Source: a virus
Length of the DNA stretch: 28,097 bases
Reading direction: 5' to 3' (one strand)
IMG/VR virus record: IMGVR_UViG_3300010389_000096
Coordinates: 1-28,097 of that record
The notes beneath the pieces are model-generated. The model made no database searches. It worked only from the letters and a program-made list of their open reading frames with translations, and was not told where the DNA came from. Below are positions 6,482 to 21,676 of the stretch, one piece after another. Position 1 is the stretch's first letter. Each line of letters opens with the position of its first letter. The position numbers and the translations under genes were made by a program.

Positions 6482-8947
6482 TTATCCTATTGCTGGAGCT
6501 AACCCAGGAGTTCTCAATGAAGCAAGAAGAGAAGTTGTTTTCTCTGTTGTGAAGTTACCAAGTTTTGTTTTATCCAACATGATTGGTGAATCTATTTTAA
6601 TAGTTACATTTATAGAGTTCTGCTCTTTTCCTTGTGCCATACTGGTTGATGCAGTATTTTCTGCTCCACCACTTTGTGAAGAATTACCAACTCTAAATTC
6701 CATAACAGGTGCAGCTGCTGTTTGCATCGAAGGAGAAACAGATACTCCTCCAATTTTCCCAAGGACTTCTAATTTTTTTATATCAATTTTGTCTAATTGT
6801 TCAACCAATTCTTTTAAGGCTACTATCGTAGGATTTATTTTTACAAACATTTCGGCCAATGAATCAGAAGCTGACTTGATAGAAGAAGCTATCATAGCCG
6901 CAGATACTGCAACACCTAAAAGAACAAATGCTCCAGCAGCACCAATGCCTGAAAGACTGGCAAGAGCAAAACCAAGACCAACAATTCCAGCCGTTGCTGC
7001 TAATAGCCCTCCAAGTGCATAGAGTGCATTCTCACCAACTTGGGCAAAAGACTTTACAAGTTCTGCCATACCAAACAGAATGCCTGTTACAGCCAATCCT
7101 ATTGCCAATATTGCTGCTGCTATAGACCAAAAACTTGGACTCGCAGCCGCAGCTGCAGTACCTGCCGTAGCAGTAGTAGTTGTCCATGTAGTGATACCAG
7201 GAATACTACTTAACGCACCAGTCCCTGTAGAACCAAATGATACCCCAAGGCTTTTAAGCAAACCGGCAAGCGTAAACGACTGAAGAGAAAGTCCTCCAAA
7301 CAAAACACCTAAAGACACAATTATTGTTGCCAAAGGAACAACTACAATACCTATAAGTGAAATACCAGAAGCAACAACTGTGAGTACAACTGCAAGAGAC
7401 TTTAAGACAAAAACAAGTTCTTTATTTTTCTCGGCAGCTTGTACGATTGGCCCTATAGTGTTTGTCAAAAAATCAGCAAAAGAACCAATCGCATTAACTA
7501 TTGGTTTTATTATAGGATAAAGAGCCAACATGGCATTTTTAAATTTATCCATAATAGAAGTCATTTCTGAACTTACAAGAGCAAGCTGCTCTGTTGTTTT
7601 TTGTTGTTCTTGTAATGCAGCAACAGAAAGATTTATATCTTGTGAAAATGCTTTTCCTGCTTGAATCTCGGACATACCAACAGCAGCTGCCATTGTCCGT
7701 CTCATGCCATTGTCAAGCTCATTAAAGCTTATACCAGACGCATCTAATGCCTGTTTGAACATTTTAAATGCTTCAATTGGGTTGTTCATAGAGGCATTTA
7801 ATAAATCTATCGAGTTAAGCACGTCTCTTCCAAGAAGAGCGTTTAATTTAGCTGCAGCTTCTGCTGCTCCCTCAAAAGTTGTAAACCTTTCTGTGATATT
7901 AAACATTTCGTTCATATCCATACCAAGTTGCTTAGAAGCTGCAGACATACTTCTAAAAACTGATGTAAATTGATCTCCATACTTTGCCAACTGATTAGCA
8001 GAAGAAGAAAGCTGTCTATCAAGCATTTGAACTGTTTGTCCTGTTTCAGTTGCAAAATCTTTGAGAGAACTTATAAAGCCTTTTGTTTGCTCTGTAGAGA
8101 TACCAAGAGACTTTGTTGTTGTGTTGAATATCATTGCCTGCGTTGAAGCATTTACACCAATTTTATCCATTATTGCTGCAAAGTTATTTAGCTCAGATCT
8201 TTGATCTTCTGTTAGCTCTGTGTAGTCACTAAATTCTTTTTTTAGTGTTGACATGGCGTTAACAAGGTTTTCTAATGGAATTCCTGCAATTGCAGCAGAT
8301 ACACCTGCTTGAGTTATACCCCTTGATGCTTCTTCAAAAGAAAAGTTAGCAAACTGCATAAGATTCTTGGCTGCTTTTTCAACATCAAGTGCCATATTAA
8401 TAAAAAACTGAGATAACCTTGAAACGCCATCTATCATAGAGGTAATCGTAGATGCTATAAATTGCTGTTGCAATACTCTTTGCTTGTCTGCGTCTAAAGT
8501 TAGTTGGCTTAGATTTTTGATTTGTTGGAGTTTCCCTCCATAAACCATGGCGTTATCTTTTATGCCAAGACTGCTTTTTAGTAATGCTTCTGAGCTTTCT
8601 GCTTGTTCTTTTATGATATCCGTTTGGTTTTTTAGCTTTTCGAGTCTTTCTATATCTAAAGTATTTTGTGTAAATTTTGTTTTTTCTTGTTCTTTTGTTA
8701 GATCTAATATTTCGTTTTCCAATCTCAGTTTTTCTATCATGTTATCTAACGAACGCTGTTGTAAATCAACAACGTTTGTGTTCAAGGTAAGAGTGCTTTT
8801 TATTGTTTCTTCTAACCTTTCTACTGTAGACGTGTCTATGTTTAGCTCGTATTGCTCTTCTAATTTCTCTGTAAAAGCTTTTAGTTGTAACTCTAACTGT
8901 TGTATGAGTTTTGTTGTCTTTTCTATATTATTTGGATCTATCGCCAT
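6482..8947 (-). CDS. Tape measure protein
   Basis: Sets tail length and occupies the tube lumen before injection. The 821-aa protein has the usual design: N-terminal coiled coil (about 1-130, heptad-like Leu/Ile/Glu/Lys), a long helical middle, then hydrophobic, Gly/Ala-rich segments able to cross a membrane (about 505-560 and 605-695), and a Ser/Asn-rich C-terminus. Using the common rule of about 0.15 nm per residue, a tail near 120 nm would be expected; this is an estimate. It follows the gp26-type gene and its overlapping chaperone-like ORF, the standard location for a tape measure gene. Start ATG 8947 is preceded by GAGGG and, 21-31 bases upstream, by an ACTATTTA element, just after a terminator, so it probably has its own transcription start. 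It is longer than T4 gp29 (about 590 aa). Confidence 0.87.
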   Translation of the reverse strand: MAIDPNNIEKTTKLIQQLELQLKAFTEKLEEQYELNIDTSTVERLEETIKSTLTLNTNVVDLQQRSLDNMIEKLRLENEILDLTKEQEKTKFTQNTLDIERLEKLKNQTDIIKEQAESSEALLKSSLGIKDNAMVYGGKLQQIKNLSQLTLDADKQRVLQQQFIASTITSMIDGVSRLSQFFINMALDVEKAAKNLMQFANFSFEEASRGITQAGVSAAIAGIPLENLVNAMSTLKKEFSDYTELTEDQRSELNNFAAIMDKIGVNASTQAMIFNTTTKSLGISTEQTKGFISSLKDFATETGQTVQMLDRQLSSSANQLAKYGDQFTSVFRSMSAASKQLGMDMNEMFNITERFTTFEGAAEAAAKLNALLGRDVLNSIDLLNASMNNPIEAFKMFKQALDASGISFNELDNGMRRTMAAAVGMSEIQAGKAFSQDINLSVAALQEQQKTTEQLALVSSEMTSIMDKFKNAMLALYPIIKPIVNAIGSFADFLTNTIGPIVQAAEKNKELVFVLKSLAVVLTVVASGISLIGIVVVPLATIIVSLGVLFGGLSLQSFTLAGLLKSLGVSFGSTGTGALSSIPGITTWTTTTATAGTAAAAASPSFWSIAAAILAIGLAVTGILFGMAELVKSFAQVGENALYALGGLLAATAGIVGLGFALASLSGIGAAGAFVLLGVAVSAAMIASSIKSASDSLAEMFVKINPTIVALKELVEQLDKIDIKKLEVLGKIGGVSVSPSMQTAAAPVMEFRVGNSSQSGGAENTASTSMAQGKEQNSINVTIKIDSPIMLDKTKLGNFTTEKTTSLLASLRTPGLAPAIG

Positions 8948-15820: not shown

Positions 15821-17074
15821 TTACCCCACAAACACATTTAGAGGAAATTTCTCAAGAACTTTAGTAGCATTCTCAGTCATTCCTGCAGTAAGCTCTGAAA
15901 GCTTATCGTAAGTCATTTCCGAAAGAATTGTTTTCAGTTCTTCTTTCAAAGAATTTTGTTCTTCTTTTGCTTGACTTAACAAGTCACCACCGTTAAGATT
16001 GATGCTTTCACCTGGAATTGGAACAGTTGAAAATTTGCTTCTTATCTGCCCCAACATTTCTTTTGAAATGGCAAGAGCGTACCTTCGAATCCACTGTTTA
16101 CCTATTGAGTTTATTTTGCTATATGGTATATTACCAAACGGCAAGCTATTCATGTTGTTCACGCCATCAATTTTAGAGTCTACAGCAGCAGAACCAGTGG
16201 TTGGCTGAACTGTAGAGTCTGTTGGTATTACGAATTCTATCCAAATCTTTGGTATTTCGCTTTCTGGGTAAGGAAAGAGTCTTAACACATTGTTGCGAAG
16301 ATCGTATGAATAGTGAGAAATGCGTGTGTAAATGTTATCTTCGTAGCTCATTGCTTGAAGTTTGTTTTGCCAAGCCGGAATTATTTCAAAAGTACTATCA
16401 TCTGCGTACTGTCCATAAGTAGAAAGATTACCCACGGTGTTTAGTCCGCCATAATATCCATAAAATCTCCACATAGCGCGAGGAGATTTGTAATAGACCT
16501 TTCTTATGCTTAGTTTTTTGCCACCAACAAGGTTGTAAAAAGACGAAGAAGGATCAAGTGACTGATTATAGATGATATCTTGCAAGTTGTAATCTTGCTG
16601 TCCCTGGACAACATCTATAGAGGCACTAAAGTGAGTAAGATTTCCTCCTACATTTGCTTCTTCTGAAGTTTTTGTAGCAATCTGCTTTACATAGCCGATA
16701 TCAAATGATGGCAATTTTTGAGAAATATCGTTACCTGATACAACTTCACCATCACTATCAAAAGAAGCTGTAGTGTTTCCTAATGCGTTAGGTAGTGCGT
16801 TTTTTGACTGATGAATGTTGATAATATAAGAGTATTCAAGTGTTGCGGTTTCATAGGCAGAATATACATTGTGTTCTGTTAGTTCTATGTCAAGAACATC
16901 GCCGCCTAACATCTTATAGGTAAATGCTACCTGATCTGAAGCGCCTGAAAGAAATTGCTGGTCAGATACGTAAACACCAAATGGCAAACTGTTTGCAACA
17001 TTAGCAGTGCTTCCTGTTGATGGAAGCACAATAGCACTTACTTGGCTTTGTGGAGTTAGTGTTGGATAAGACAT
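15821..17074 (-). CDS. Neck protein (gp13-like)
   Basis: Head-completion/neck protein that joins tails to filled heads. The 417-aa product has a segment (about 54-90) YKMLGGDVLDIELTEHNVYS followed by AYETATLEYSYIIN, characteristic of gp13-type neck proteins of T4-like phages, and a C-terminal helical part (SAKxEQNSLKEELKTILSEM-like, from about 365). T4 gp13 is 309 aa, so this is longer. It opens the neck operon; its leader carries ACTACTTATA and AAAGAGGTG, nearly the same as the leader of the preceding HExxH gene. Confidence 0.72.
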   Translation of the reverse strand: MSYPTLTPQSQVSAIVLPSTGSTANVANSLPFGVYVSDQQFLSGASDQVAFTYKMLGGDVLDIELTEHNVYSAYETATLEYSYIINIHQSKNALPNALGNTTASFDSDGEVVSGNDISQKLPSFDIGYVKQIATKTSEEANVGGNLTHFSASIDVVQGQQDYNLQDIIYNQSLDPSSSFYNLVGGKKLSIRKVYYKSPRAMWRFYGYYGGLNTVGNLSTYGQYADDSTFEIIPAWQNKLQAMSYEDNIYTRISHYSYDLRNNVLRLFPYPESEIPKIWIEFVIPTDSTVQPTTGSAAVDSKIDGVNNMNSLPFGNIPYSKINSIGKQWIRRYALAISKEMLGQIRSKFSTVPIPGESINLNGGDLLSQAKEEQNSLKEELKTILSEMTYDKLSELTAGMTENATKVLEKFPLNVFVG

Positions 17075-17106: not shown

Positions 17107-17709
17107 CTAAATATCTTTATCCCTTAGTCTGTTATTGACCTCTCTTTCTAAATAGGAATGCTTTTCTGTCCATGTCTTGCCATGAACTTCGCCTTCGTGA
17201 TCGGCATCTGGATTTCCATCTAGATTCCAAAGAACTATGTGTATAAGCTCATGAACAAGTGCTGTTGAATAAAGCTTTAGTTCTTTTTTGTTTTTTTGAA
17301 TTTTTATCTTTTTGTCGTTGATTGTCTGATAGTAATAATCGTATATCCAAACATCTGTATCCTTTTTATTTTTTGTAATCCCGGTTGCCTTTGAGAATGT
17401 TTTTCCGCCAACTTTATATTCCATTCCTAAATCGATAGGTTCGCTTTTCCAATATATATTGACATTGTCAAGAACCTTTCGTACATCTCTTTTATCTATA
17501 ATTTCGTGCCATGCTCTTTCAAATTCGGCAAGAACAATAGCTACATCTTTGGGATCAAATAAGCCTTCAACACTTTCTTGTCTTGTGTTCCATCCAGGGA
17601 TGGACTCACCTGGCCTTTTATACTTTTTCCAAAGCAAATGGGCTAACGGCAGTCCTATTGCAGTTGAAAAGAAACCAGCAGTAAGACAAAGAATAAAAAA
17701 TATTTCCAT
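17107..17709 (-). CDS. Membrane-anchored HExxH metalloprotease-like protein
   Basis: Begins at ATG 17709, chosen because AAAGAGGTG lies just upstream and because a hydrophobic N-terminus then falls at residues 3-27 (IFFILCLTAGFFSTAIGLPL), a signal-anchor; a longer reading frame to 17790 would overlap the endonuclease gene. The 200-aa product contains L-V-H153-E154-L-I-H157, the zinc-protease HExxH motif, followed by a third-ligand candidate in PDADHEGEVHG (D168, D170, H171 or H176). No further recognisable domain. Such proteins can act on cell-surface or periplasmic proteins, or only resemble SprT/minimal gluzincin folds; the substrate is unknown. It sits between a homing endonuclease and the neck operon, outside the usual T4 order, so it may be a passenger of the island. 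Confidence 0.7.
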   Translation of the reverse strand: MEIFFILCLTAGFFSTAIGLPLAHLLWKKYKRPGESIPGWNTRQESVEGLFDPKDVAIVLAEFERAWHEIIDKRDVRKVLDNVNIYWKSEPIDLGMEYKVGGKTFSKATGITKNKKDTDVWIYDYYYQTINDKKIKIQKNKKELKLYSTALVHELIHIVLWNLDGNPDADHEGEVHGKTWTEKHSYLEREVNNRLRDKDI

Positions 17710-17738: not shown

Positions 17739-19166
17739 CTATGCTATGCTTAAAAGATATATTTTGGAACCACAACCATACACTGGCCAAACATTATTTT
17801 TTTCTGCCACTTGTCTTTCTGTAAGACCCGCAGAGGCTCTGTATTTAAAACGAAACTCTCTTGTATCACCATCGGTATACCAATAATCAACAGGGGTAGA
17901 GCCTACAAGTTTAAATTCTTTATTATATACCTCGCCTTCTCCAAATCTCATATCGGCATAGGTAAGAATGTTTTGAAAACCATTACTCTTTGCCCATTCT
18001 TTTGCCACTTTAAATAGTTTGGAGAAACCACCAGGAACAGAGGTATAAAGTCCAGTAGCAAATCTAGCTATTTCTATTGAGTTTTTATACTTTTTTTGAA
18101 TTGGCTTTTTCAAAGAAAGACAAGCTCGCAACCTATCACCATAAAACAGTCCAAAATAAGCACTTGCACGGTTATCACCTGAAATATGGCACTTTTCAAA
18201 AAACTCCCTTCCCTGTTCCTTTTCTACTTTTCTCACTTCGCATTTGCGAGCATATACGATTCCCATTGACATTCCTAAACGGTGAAGAATCATGGATTTT
18301 ACAATGTCCCTTTTATACTCCCATTCGTCGGAGAATATATGAAAAAGTTTTATTCCCTTTTCCCTACAGGAAATGGTTTTATCTAAATGTGTCCGCTTAT
18401 CAATACGCTCTCCACTGTGCCAATAAAGACCATTATACTCGATAGCAAAGTTTTTTTCTGGAAGGTATATGTCTAATTCTTTTGGTGCGATAATGCTTCT
18501 TGTGTTTTCCGCTATTTCCCCGTCATAAACATCACGTAGCCATTCAACCACTTCTTTTTCAGCTTTAGAAAAGCCAGAGCCAGAGCATTTAGGGCATCCA
18601 ATATATCCACTTAAATGATCATTCGGCCTTTGAAAGAAGAAATAATTATGTTCTTTACATAAAATTTTTATTTTATCTTTTGAGTGCGCATATTCTATTT
18701 CTGAATAATCATATCTGTCTTTAAACTTTTCTTGCGCTCTTTCTATGAATCGCTCATTTCCTAACAAACATTTTGTTTTTCTTGCTTCTGCTGCTTTTTC
18801 TATTATATGACGTGGCATATTTTTATAAAAATGGTTTTGTTCTCCTTTCATCTTTTCTGAATGAGAGCGAATTGAACTATTTGTTTCTTTTGTTAGTCCA
18901 CGTTTCCATCCTGGATCAAATGGCATATTTTCTTTAGACCACTCTGCCCTTCCTAGATTAGCGTGTTCTTTACAATAAGTTCTAAACTTATTTTCTCCTC
19001 TAATAAAAGAAGGGGCATTCTCGCAAGCCTTGCATTTAGGAGCGTTTCCATTATACTCTGTTAAAACAATATATTCTTGAACCGACATTTTATGTGCTGC
19101 TCCAACATGACCAGCCAAAGCTGCTGCGCTTTTAAGTTGTTTATCACAAATTTTACAAGTTGTCAT
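17739..19166 (-). CDS. Free-standing homing endonuclease, zinc finger + EDxHD nuclease + GNAT-like domain
   Basis: A 475-aa multi-domain mobile endonuclease. Residues 4-25 form a C2H2 finger (C4, C7, H20, H25), and C45/C48/C65/H68 a second metal site. Residues about 136-196 are a DNA-binding zinc module with C170, H173 and C191-PK-C194. The nuclease core follows: KELDIYLPEKNFAIEYNGLYW at 229-249 (E230, D232, E243), H250 and then LFHIFSDEWEY (D280, E281), matching the very-short-patch-repair-like EDxHD family to which phage homing enzymes such as I-Bth0305I belong. The C-terminal part (about 303-435) resembles an acetyltransferase fold and ends with YGCGSKIY, a usual feature of this architecture. 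It is preceded by GAGGACA and lies downstream of the displaced capsid 3' end. All key residues are intact, so it may still be active. Confidence 0.82.
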   Translation of the reverse strand: MTTCKICDKQLKSAAALAGHVGAAHKMSVQEYIVLTEYNGNAPKCKACENAPSFIRGENKFRTYCKEHANLGRAEWSKENMPFDPGWKRGLTKETNSSIRSHSEKMKGEQNHFYKNMPRHIIEKAAEARKTKCLLGNERFIERAQEKFKDRYDYSEIEYAHSKDKIKILCKEHNYFFFQRPNDHLSGYIGCPKCSGSGFSKAEKEVVEWLRDVYDGEIAENTRSIIAPKELDIYLPEKNFAIEYNGLYWHSGERIDKRTHLDKTISCREKGIKLFHIFSDEWEYKRDIVKSMILHRLGMSMGIVYARKCEVRKVEKEQGREFFEKCHISGDNRASAYFGLFYGDRLRACLSLKKPIQKKYKNSIEIARFATGLYTSVPGGFSKLFKVAKEWAKSNGFQNILTYADMRFGEGEVYNKEFKLVGSTPVDYWYTDGDTREFRFKYRASAGLTERQVAEKNNVWPVYGCGSKIYLLSIA

Positions 19167-19223
19167 TTTTTGTCCTCTACATCAGCATAGCACGTTATCA
19201 CTCCTTTGTAAATAGCACAAATA

Positions 19224-19253
19224 AAAAAAGCCCCCTTTCGAGGGGGCTTTTTA
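19224..19253. terminator. Bidirectional-looking terminator after displaced capsid 3' end
   Basis: 12-bp stem AAAAAGCCCCCT / AGGGGGCTTTTT around a TTCG loop (as read on the plus strand). With A and T runs on both sides it could act in either direction. It lies 18 bases after the displaced capsid stop, the same layout as at the intact capsid gene. Confidence 0.8.
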
Positions 19254-19270
19254 TTAGGAAAAACTCAAAA

Positions 19271-19297
19271 CTAGCCGAGTAGATCCTGTACGATAAC
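19271..19297 (-). pseudogene. Displaced copy of the capsid gene 3' end
   Basis: Minus-strand codons here read V-I-V-Q-D-L-L-G-stop. The intact capsid protein ends V-V-I-Q-D-L-L-G-stop. The five shared residues QDLLG use a different synonymous codon at every position, while both copies end TAGTTT and are followed at about 18-20 bases by a C-rich/G-rich terminator. I read this as the old capsid 3' end, cut off when the GIY-YIG gene arrived with its own version. Confidence 0.7.
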
Positions 19298-19312
19298 AAA
19301 AATAAGCTTAAT

Positions 19313-19888
19313 CTATTCTTTCCATGATTTTTTTTCTACTATTGCTTGTATAGTACTTCTAGCAACATTAAATTTTAGCGATAAACTTCTATATGTTTCT
19401 TCGCCTTGAGAGTATAATAATCTTATTATCCTCACTTTATTCCAATCTAATTTAGATCTAGGATGTTTATCTCCTTTGTTTTTTTCTCCCATTTTCTTTT
19501 TCAATTCTTCACTTCTATTGTGTGCTATTATTTTAAGTTTCTCTTTTGTTTGTTTAGAGTGAGTTTTACCATAAAATGGATTATTTTTTCCACTTTTATC
19601 TATTGGGTTTTTATCAAAATTATATCCTATATTTCTTTCGTAGCTTTTTGTTTCTTGTAAATAAAATATTTCTTTTTCTATTCTGTTTTGATCTGTAACT
19701 TGTTCAAGTATAGAAAATTCAAAATTTTTTTCTCCATATTTGTCCCAAGCTGCTTGTAAATATGAATTTTCATGTATTTTATTATTTAATTTACTACGAT
19801 GGTTATTCCATCTTTTTCGTACATTATTTGTACTTCCAATATAAAGTTTATTATTTATTTTATTACGTATTTGATAAATTGCTTGCAT
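19313..19888 (-). CDS. GIY-YIG homing endonuclease
   Basis: A 191-aa mobile endonuclease. The start at ATG 19888 is chosen because the GIY-YIG domain begins at once: A-I-Y-Q-I at 3-7 and L-Y-I-G-S-T at 15-20, then KRWNNHRSKLNN (R24, R28-type contacts) and a conserved E in KEIFYLQE. A NUMOD3-like motif NNPFYGKTHSKQTKEKL follows (about 110-126), and the C-terminus is a helix-turn-helix (YRSLSLKFNVARSTIQAIV). It is more AT- and Lys/Asn-rich than its neighbours. There is no clear SD; a TACTTATTTATATG sequence abuts the start. It lies between two copies of the capsid 3' end, evidence of insertion by homing. The flanks are too short for a group I intron, so it is a free-standing gene. Confidence 0.88.
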   Translation of the reverse strand: MQAIYQIRNKINNKLYIGSTNNVRKRWNNHRSKLNNKIHENSYLQAAWDKYGEKNFEFSILEQVTDQNRIEKEIFYLQETKSYERNIGYNFDKNPIDKSGKNNPFYGKTHSKQTKEKLKIIAHNRSEELKKKMGEKNKGDKHPRSKLDWNKVRIIRLLYSQGEETYRSLSLKFNVARSTIQAIVEKKSWKE

Positions 19889-19910
19889 ATAAATAAGTAT
19901 TTTAAAAAAC

Positions 19911-19938
19911 AAAAAAGCCCCTGTAAAGGGGCTTTTTT
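19911..19938. terminator. Terminator after the major capsid gene
   Basis: 12-bp stem AAAAAAGCCCCT / AGGGGCTTTTTT with a four-base loop, 20 bases after the capsid stop, followed on the minus strand by further T. The A and T arms would let it work in both directions. It would cap the abundant capsid transcript and isolate it from the endonuclease gene. Confidence 0.85.
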
Positions 19939-19957
19939 GACTAAATTAATTTTTAAA

Positions 19958-21676
19958 CTAACCTAGAAGGTCTTGGATCACCACTAAGCCGTACATGTCA
20001 GGACGAACCATCTTTTTTGCATATCTCGTCATTACACCCTTACGTGGCACAAAGTCCTCTACACCAAAGATGGTTTGAGTGACCTGTAGTGGGATATATG
20101 GAGCATAAACATATCCACTTTCGAGGAACTGAGAACCACGACGACCTACAAGGATAACATTGCGTGGGAAATAAGGATCTACATAGACATCCCATTTCTT
20201 GCTAACGCTACCAATATTTACAGCACCAGCCATACCAGCGTCATCATCTGGTGCAACTTTGGCACGGAAACCAGCGGTCATCTCAAGGACAGAAGCAACT
20301 TCTGGTCCGCAGACAAGGAAGTTAGCACCGCCACGTAGTGTCTTACGGTGAATCTGAGCAGAAACATCATTAACGGTCTCAAGCAAGGTCTCATACCACT
20401 CTGATACATTACCAGTGAAGTCGGCACCAAGTAGTGACTCATTTGCGCTTGTGCTGATAGCAAGACCAGTTGAGCGATCAAGGAATCGACCTGGACGACG
20501 TGACCAGTAGAAGGTAGCAGCAGTAGCACCCTTGATAAGATCTTCGAGAATTTCACGATCAAGCTCAAGAGCAATTTGCTCACTCATAATTGAAGTAAGT
20601 TCTACTTCTGCATCAAGATTGTGATAAGCATTTAGATCCTGACCAAGTTCTGGAGTCCACTTGACCTTGAGTTTCTTGGTCTTGGCAGTTACAGCAACGC
20701 TGTCGATCTTGACATCAATTTCTGGTAAATCACCCTGGTTCTCAAGAGCCCAATCAGTTGTACCCTTGACAGCACCAAGAGCATTTGCATTGGTGAGATC
20801 GTCATCCTGTGGCCATGAGAGAGTACGTGAACCAGCATTATCATCAAGAGCGGTTGAAGCAAGAGTATCTGAAGCAACAACAAGACGAACGTGTGTGAAC
20901 ACATCACCGGTTGCATCAGCACCGTTGCTATCACACTTGGCAGTTAAGCGACGAACAAGTGAACCACTTGGCAATGAAGCTGAGATGGCTACAAGGTCAG
21001 AACGATTTAGCTGATCAAGTGATGATACTGGAACAGTAAATAGGGCCACATTGGTTGTACCTGAAACAAGATCTGGGTCAAAACGACAAAGCTTGTCAAG
21101 GGTTGTGGTTACTGAACCAAGGGTTACAGAAAGGTTCGAACCAATGGTACCTGAAGCGATAAGGCTTAGGGTAGCACTATCGCTACCGGTAGCAGAAGTA
21201 TAACCGTTGTTCATATTATAGAATGATTTCTCTGCATTGTCACCGGTTAGGCTTACACCACCAGTGATCTGGCTACCAAGAACACCACCACCAAATAGTG
21301 AGTCTGGGTTGGCACCACCAAGTCCACCACGACCATCATCGCTGTACTGGAAGTCTAGGAAGAAGATGAGGCCGGATGGTAGACTCATTGGCTGTACTGA
21401 TACAAGATCATTGGCAATAAGTGAACCGAATACACGACGAACGATTGGGAATGCTACAGCAGCAAAACCTTCTACGTCGCCAGCAGCCATCGAAGAAGCC
21501 TCTTTTAGAAGCTGCTTGGCCTGGTTCTCTAAAAGAACTGACATACCATTTTTAGTAGTCTCGCTATCGAGACCTTCGAGAAGACCAGTGCCTTCCCATT
21601 TAGCACGTAGTGCTGCGCCTTCCTTAGAAAGATCGCGATCTACTACGCCCTCTGTTAATTTTTTTAATAAAGTCAT
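19958..21676 (-). CDS. Major capsid protein (gp23-like)
   Basis: HK97-fold shell subunit, 572 aa (T4 gp23 is 521). After a charged, removable N-terminal region comes FPIVRRVFGSLIANDLVSVQ and then PMSLPSGLIFFLDFQY, the T4-like capsid signature. A candidate prohead-protease site is L57-K58-E59/A60, matching the LxE/A rule and close to the E65/A66 cut in gp23. Later landmarks are WTPELGQDLNAYHNLDAEVE and MSEQIALELDREILEDLIKG, then FPRNVILVGRRGSQFLESGY and the C-terminus YGLVVIQDLLG. SD is AAGGAGAT and the base composition is less AT-rich than surrounding genes, as usual for highly expressed capsid genes. Its terminal codons differ synonymously from the displaced copy downstream, so the 3' end may have been exchanged. 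Confidence 0.93.
   Translation of the reverse strand: MTLLKKLTEGVVDRDLSKEGAALRAKWEGTGLLEGLDSETTKNGMSVLLENQAKQLLKEASSMAAGDVEGFAAVAFPIVRRVFGSLIANDLVSVQPMSLPSGLIFFLDFQYSDDGRGGLGGANPDSLFGGGVLGSQITGGVSLTGDNAEKSFYNMNNGYTSATGSDSATLSLIASGTIGSNLSVTLGSVTTTLDKLCRFDPDLVSGTTNVALFTVPVSSLDQLNRSDLVAISASLPSGSLVRRLTAKCDSNGADATGDVFTHVRLVVASDTLASTALDDNAGSRTLSWPQDDDLTNANALGAVKGTTDWALENQGDLPEIDVKIDSVAVTAKTKKLKVKWTPELGQDLNAYHNLDAEVELTSIMSEQIALELDREILEDLIKGATAATFYWSRRPGRFLDRSTGLAISTSANESLLGADFTGNVSEWYETLLETVNDVSAQIHRKTLRGGANFLVCGPEVASVLEMTAGFRAKVAPDDDAGMAGAVNIGSVSKKWDVYVDPYFPRNVILVGRRGSQFLESGYVYAPYIPLQVTQTIFGVEDFVPRKGVMTRYAKKMVRPDMYGLVVIQDLLG

Follow-up and report, generated by a model that had tools for sequence, protein, structure and literature searches.

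Mobile open reading frames (ORFs) that carry the end of a host gene are known from fungal mitochondria, in atp6 of Allomyces macrogynus and in atp6, atp9, cox2 and nad3 of Glomus (PMC3630166). In these elements, an endonuclease ORF is accompanied by a foreign C-terminus that continues the host reading frame, the native C-terminus lies downstream of the nuclease and matches that of ORF-less relatives, and the divergence between the two ends is largely synonymous (PMC3630166). Nucleases near capsid genes are common in phages (PMC10448857). The T4 genes segA-segG encode free-standing GIY-YIG nucleases next to essential genes, and segD lies between genes 23 and 24, antisense to gene 23 (PMC2988022). 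These genes are intergenic, the distance from insertion to cut site is in the hundreds or thousands of bp, and the passages of that source on them describe no displaced end of a target gene. The genes mobE of Aeh1 (in nrdA) and mobA of T4 (in gene 60) lie within the coding regions of essential phage genes, which are split into separate coding regions (PMC2988022). HomeR drives, which are synthetic, Cas9-based and used in insects, home into an essential gene whose function is preserved by a recoded portion (PMC7968924).

We analyzed a 28,097-nt stretch of viral DNA (the window), an IMG/VR fragment of about 28 kb that covers structural genes of a T4-like myovirus. On its minus strand, the major capsid protein gene gp23 (19958-21676; 572 aa, ending in LVVIQDLLG-stop; Pfam Gp23, E=4e-73; PHROG 138) is followed by an intrinsic terminator (T1, 19910-19939), a GIY-YIG homing endonuclease gene (19313-19888; 191 aa), an apparently displaced gp23 end (VIVQDLLG-stop, 19271-19297), a second terminator (T2, 19225-19252) and a second homing nuclease gene (17739-19166; 475 aa; PHROG 3339, E=9e-83). 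The order downstream of gp23 in related phages is a terminator, in the usual case a CTATTTA-like element, and a homolog of the window gene at 15821-17074, a PHROG head-tail adaptor, which mostly lies within about 100-150 bp of gp23. The same interval in the window contains two nuclease genes and an SprT-like gene. We put the probability that this locus represents a free-standing GIY-YIG homing endonuclease cassette resident in the 3' end of gp23 at about 84%.

An inserted C-terminus is present in phase upstream of the nuclease, where the resident tail completes gp23, and a native C-terminus matching those of nuclease-free relatives is present downstream of it. Compared by arrangement, the phage cassette appears to work like the fungal mobile ORFs, including the largely synonymous divergence of the two ends. 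It differs from them in residing in a phage capsid gene instead of a mitochondrial gene, in encoding a GIY-YIG enzyme where the Glomus atp6 ORF is of the LAGLIDADG type (PMC3630166), in swapping a tail of only 8-10 codons compared with 51-298 aligned C-terminus positions in the fungal elements (PMC3630166), and in also bringing a transcription terminator. It shares with the seg genes a free-standing GIY-YIG nuclease beside an essential gene, and with segD the same capsid gene, but the window nuclease is co-directional with gp23. Like mobE and mobA it lies within an essential coding region, yet gp23 stays whole by means of a replacement end. The likeness to HomeR drives is one of analogy, with no kinship by descent. 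Our literature search, which left subscription journals and preprints largely outside its reach, found no phage nuclease described as bringing the end of a gene along with it.

The resident gp23 ends in GTG GTG ATC CAA GAC CTT CTA GGT TAG, and the second copy (minus strand, 19297-19271) reads GTT ATC GTA CAG GAT CTA CTC GGC TAG. An initial annotation of this DNA had reported that all five QDLLG codons differ synonymously, that both copies run into TAGTTT, and that a similar terminator follows each stop after about 18-20 bases. All of this can be read off the two copies, and each terminator begins exactly 18 nt past its TAG. The stem of T1 has 13 pairs, with -19.3 kcal/mol and a z of -4.5, and that of T2 has 12 pairs, with -19.0 kcal/mol and a z of -2.9. 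The annotation had given 19258-20010 for the whole observation; the second gp23 end is real, and the displaced segment proper spans 19225-19297. It is separated from the nuclease stop by 15 nt (19298-19312) to which no origin could be assigned and which have no counterpart in other carriers of the nuclease. A Markov model of the window predicts QDLLG-stop 0.25 times per Mb (a chance of about 1.5e-5 per 60 nt). On the minus strand of the window the motif occurs only at these two places, and each of its 12 occurrences in related loci (2.5 million six-frame residues) is a gp23 C-terminus.

Among 190 pairs of QDLLG tails, 12 differ at all five QDLLG codons, which makes this detail by itself unusual, not extreme. 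Over the eight sense codons, the resident copy and the remnant share 14/24 bases, below the median of 16 when either is compared with 67 distinct gp23 tails. A local duplication in tandem of the resident gp23 end, with the copies afterwards split by the nuclease and subject to synonymous drift, would account for the nearly identical peptide and for a terminator after both copies. However, it is very improbable, since the two copies are less alike than typical gp23 tails of different phages, the remnant groups with tails from phages lacking the GIY-YIG gene while the resident groups with a carrier, and a sister pair of loci (L167 and L168) shows replacement by a divergent tail. The nearest tails to the remnant over the last eight sense codons are those of GIY-less L174 (22/24) and L175 (20/24), and the nearest to the resident is that of the GIY-YIG carrier L085 (21/24).

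The rest of gp23 points to the resident end as the foreign one. Codons 1-540 of the window gp23, outside its variable domain, are closest to those of GIY-less L001-L005, while seven carriers (L082-L088) rank first for the last 32 codons, and the longest exact match to the L085 gp23 is a 29-nt stretch at the tail (GACATGTACGGCTTAGTGGTGATCCAAGA). The comparison shows a window gp23 that is chimeric at its 3' end, with the resident tail (19958-19987, minus strand) probably borne by the cassette together with T1. The bias of the tail towards carriers ranks 13th, not first, of 400 nine-codon windows outside the variable domain. With no gp23 relative closer than about 72% identity, the left breakpoint is unsharp in the window, and a whole-gene breakpoint scan, for which close relatives are lacking, is moderately informative only.

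Occupied and empty alleles of one site are present in close relatives. In the sister pair, L167 is occupied and L168 has no nuclease, and the two are 98.7% identical over 300 nt to the left and 97.3% identical over 300 nt to the right of the junctions. Between the junctions, L168 has 20 nt (TGGCATTGTTGTCATACAAG) and L167 has 163 nt, which include a divergent gp23 tail (11/20 identical to that of L168), T1 and an internally deleted GIY-YIG gene. The gp23 of L168 ends in ...GACATGTATGGCATTGTTGTCATACAAGACATGGTCGGCTGA and runs into its own terminator. L167 matches it as far as GACATGTA and continues with a differing end (CGGATTAGTGGTGGTCCAGGATATGGTAGGTTGA), T1 and the deleted nuclease, after which the ACATGGTCGGCTGATATTAACC of L168 resumes. 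The L167 cassette sits exactly in the gp23 end and consists of the rewritten last ten codons, T1 and the GIY-YIG gene, and the piece of gp23 transferred is short, about 8-10 codons. By this comparison, about 20 nt were lost to the insertion, which brought in a new gp23 ending and cut off the native terminator and the last three and two-thirds codons from the rest of the gene. In L167, the nuclease later decayed while the exchanged tail was retained. In a second pair, L088 carries an intact GIY-YIG gene followed by ATATGGTCGGCTGATAG plus T2. This stretch aligns with the end of gp23 in empty L175, its terminator and the promoter region beyond.

In the reading of the initial annotation, the nuclease gene brought a capsid 3' end and terminator from elsewhere and thereby displaced the old end, leaving a remnant that marks the insertion point. 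Both pairs bear this out. What follows the GIY-YIG gene in L167 and L088 corresponds to the native end and terminator of gp23 in L168 and L175, rather than a segment that nuclease-free relatives lack or hold in another gene, and the junctions fall in the gp23 end. Comparison thus shows the insertion point and the displaced native end, and by equivalence with these relics the 19271-19297 segment of the window is probably an untranslated relic as well. In L209, which has no GIY-YIG gene, the order is gp23, terminator, CTATTTACA and second nuclease, and this aligns with the window from the remnant onward, with T2 collinear with the gp23 terminator of L209. The CTATTTACA copy of the window (19207-19215, minus strand) is a promoter-like element; in relatives it lies 3' of the gp23 terminator. 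The L209 arrangement probably represents the pre-insertion state of the window locus.

The position of the right junction also bears on ordinary intronless homing of the T4 seg type, in which the nuclease would have inserted between genes, the cut site would lie elsewhere in gp23, and the tail exchange would be a by-product of co-conversion. Most free-standing phage nucleases are indeed intergenic and cut at a distance of hundreds of bp, usually with co-conversion (PMC2988022). However, in L167, L088 and the window the right junction falls within gp23 codons and leaves a truncated set of them downstream, and the two occupied/empty pairs place the insertion point within gp23 codons rather than between genes. 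The truncated codons argue against an intergenic insertion, which would not strand the last codons of gp23, and we consider this explanation unlikely.

The GIY-YIG gene product matches Pfam GIY-YIG (8.7e-14) and NUMOD3 (2.1e-8) and the catalytic domain of I-TevI (1.4e-12), its closest solved structure, and its PHROG matches are homing endonuclease and helix-turn-helix (HTH) families. Both a nuclease domain and a DNA-binding region, with the NUMOD3 motif and a C-terminal HTH-like region, are thus found in it; its predicted structure has a pLDDT of 50. A dN/dS of about 0.2 points to purifying selection and indicates that the nuclease is maintained as a working protein. GIY-YIG nucleases such as I-TevI are often intron-borne, and a displaced gp23 end would resemble the 3' exon of a decayed group I intron with the GIY-YIG gene as its ORF. 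However, the nuclease is a separate ORF outside any intron or intein, gp23 is complete with its stop and terminator upstream of it, and the gap from the gp23 stop to the nuclease start in carriers is only about 70 nt and occupied by the terminator. An Rfam search gave no group I intron among its matches, and nothing reached the gathering score of any family. With no such match, and with gp23 whole before the nuclease, we rejected an intron origin, the least probable of the explanations considered.

A protein search of viral contigs with the cassette nuclease gave seven matches at 74-78% identity (L082-L088), all directly 3' of gp23 at near-equal spacing; the rest reached at most 52%, over shorter lengths. 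L253 (66%), also 3' of gp23, came from a profile search, and a search for relatives with the L085 gp23 led to L167, whose nuclease is reduced to MQAIYEIRNKINNKKSWKE. This GIY-YIG gene thus lies directly behind gp23 in 10 of the 10 IMG/VR contigs in which it was found (the window, L082-L088, L167 and L253), and the gp23 tail, T1 and the nuclease start form one aligned block across carriers. Searches of GenBank phages gave no close relative of the nuclease; the best matches are under 60% identical and mostly confined to the catalytic part. The DNA identity between the window and L085 is 80% for the GIY-YIG gene and 66% for gp23, and the protein encoded after the insertion is 55% identical between the window and the sister carrier L087, which indicates that the cassette moved between lineages. 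Comparison across these contigs shows both recurrence at the gp23 end and movement between phage lineages. Displaced codons are not recognisable in L082, L083-L087 and L253, which retain a second terminator only, and two divergent phages with a GIY-YIG gene next to gp23 (L131 and L294) have no visible tail exchange. The window GIY-YIG gene starts about 20 nt past T1 (19888-19910, minus strand) with no obvious Shine-Dalgarno sequence. A CTTATTTAT-like element abuts its ATG, and the spacing from T1 to the start is conserved among other carriers, hinting at late or leaderless expression.

The third codon of the resident tail is GTG in 7/7 distinct carriers, including distant L253 and decayed L167. 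The same codon is GTG in 1/119 distinct tails without the GIY-YIG gene (1/65 of those with Val there). Fisher's test gives 5e-9 for this difference, a value that overstates independence because the seven carriers share the cassette by descent. The GTG codon persisted while adjacent codons changed. We infer that it may lie within the recognition or cut site and so protect the resident copy, and its restriction to carriers is consistent with resistance by recoding, as the initial annotation had suggested. L169 and L209, which have no GIY-YIG gene, share the carrier-type start of the 3' UTR (TGATCTTAAA), and L169 has GTG at the second tail codon. These two may represent the source lineage of the cassette tail or phages after nuclease loss.

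In the mechanism that we propose, the mobile unit would comprise the recoded last 9-10 codons of gp23, the stop, T1 and the GIY-YIG gene. During co-infection, the enzyme would cut nuclease-free gp23 alleles a few codons before the stop, within the last dozen codons, and repair would copy the cassette in, with conserved gp23 sequence (MVRPDMYG) as left homology and the old gp23 end plus downstream DNA as right homology. The recipient's own ending and terminator would be displaced downstream, where they would be untranslated and no longer form an intact target, and the relic would serve as right-hand homology arm. The synonymous ending supplied by the cassette should escape the enzyme, and because of it the recipient's gp23 would stay full-length. 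The recipient would thus hold a chimeric gp23, a new terminator and the nuclease. By carrying its own rewritten ending and displacing the original, the cassette could invade an essential gene without breaking it. We infer the cleavage site, the immunity by recoding and the role of the relic from the comparisons above. The position of T1 fits a gp23 transcript that ends with the inserted C-terminus and leaves the native end untranslated. In GIY-less near relatives of the window, gp23 would be expected to end in GTTATCGTACARGATCTACTC, followed by T2 and the second nuclease. We lean, with some reserve, towards regarding the cassette as a natural home-and-rescue element, in which a nuclease that targets the capsid gene always travels with a recoded ending and terminator that rescue and immunise it, spreads across T4-like lineages and leaves a displaced ending as its scar.

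Such an element would mean that a selfish nuclease can occupy its own target in an essential gene without splicing or splitting, by means of a synonymous replacement end, and that the logic of engineered rescue drives has already evolved in phages. Displaced endings, as scars that mark insertion points, predict cut sites, and because one small group contains alleles with the cassette, without it and with a decayed nuclease, the homing cycle is directly testable. Because gp23 is a widely used phage marker gene, it also matters that its last codons can differ in history from the rest.

The second nuclease of the window has homologs in L037, L038, L161-L164, L188 and L209, all after gp23, and no duplicated tail is seen at these homologs. 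It is probably older at the locus than the GIY-YIG insertion because L209 keeps the gp23-terminator-CTATTTACA-nuclease order with no GIY-YIG gene. There is a weak match of its middle part to 3r3p, a mobile intron protein (E 0.14), and in a moderate-confidence model part of the chain matches the GNAT fold with phage Mu Mom as best match (8bv8, E 9e-7), so the protein may combine a nuclease with a Mom-like domain in one fusion. A candidate SprT-like metallopeptidase gene (17107-17709, minus strand; Pfam 20.9 bits, below the 25.6 cut-off) separates the second nuclease from the adaptor gene and has no match in the first 80 gp23 relatives.

The interval 3' of gp23 is an insertion hot spot in this phage group, with virion-like proteins in many relatives in addition to the nucleases. 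The virion-like proteins begin, for example, with MFFYSE... or MGSKR/MGSKF..., and their genes often have their own terminator and CTATTTA element. Loci of this kind at the junction between gp23 and the homolog of 15821-17074 include L012, L039, L044, L047, L057, L062, L166, L169, L172, L174, L175, L180 and L182. In two large contigs (L215 and L217, about 7740-8387), another GIY-YIG gene, only distantly related, separates the adaptor gene from the structural gene that comes next.
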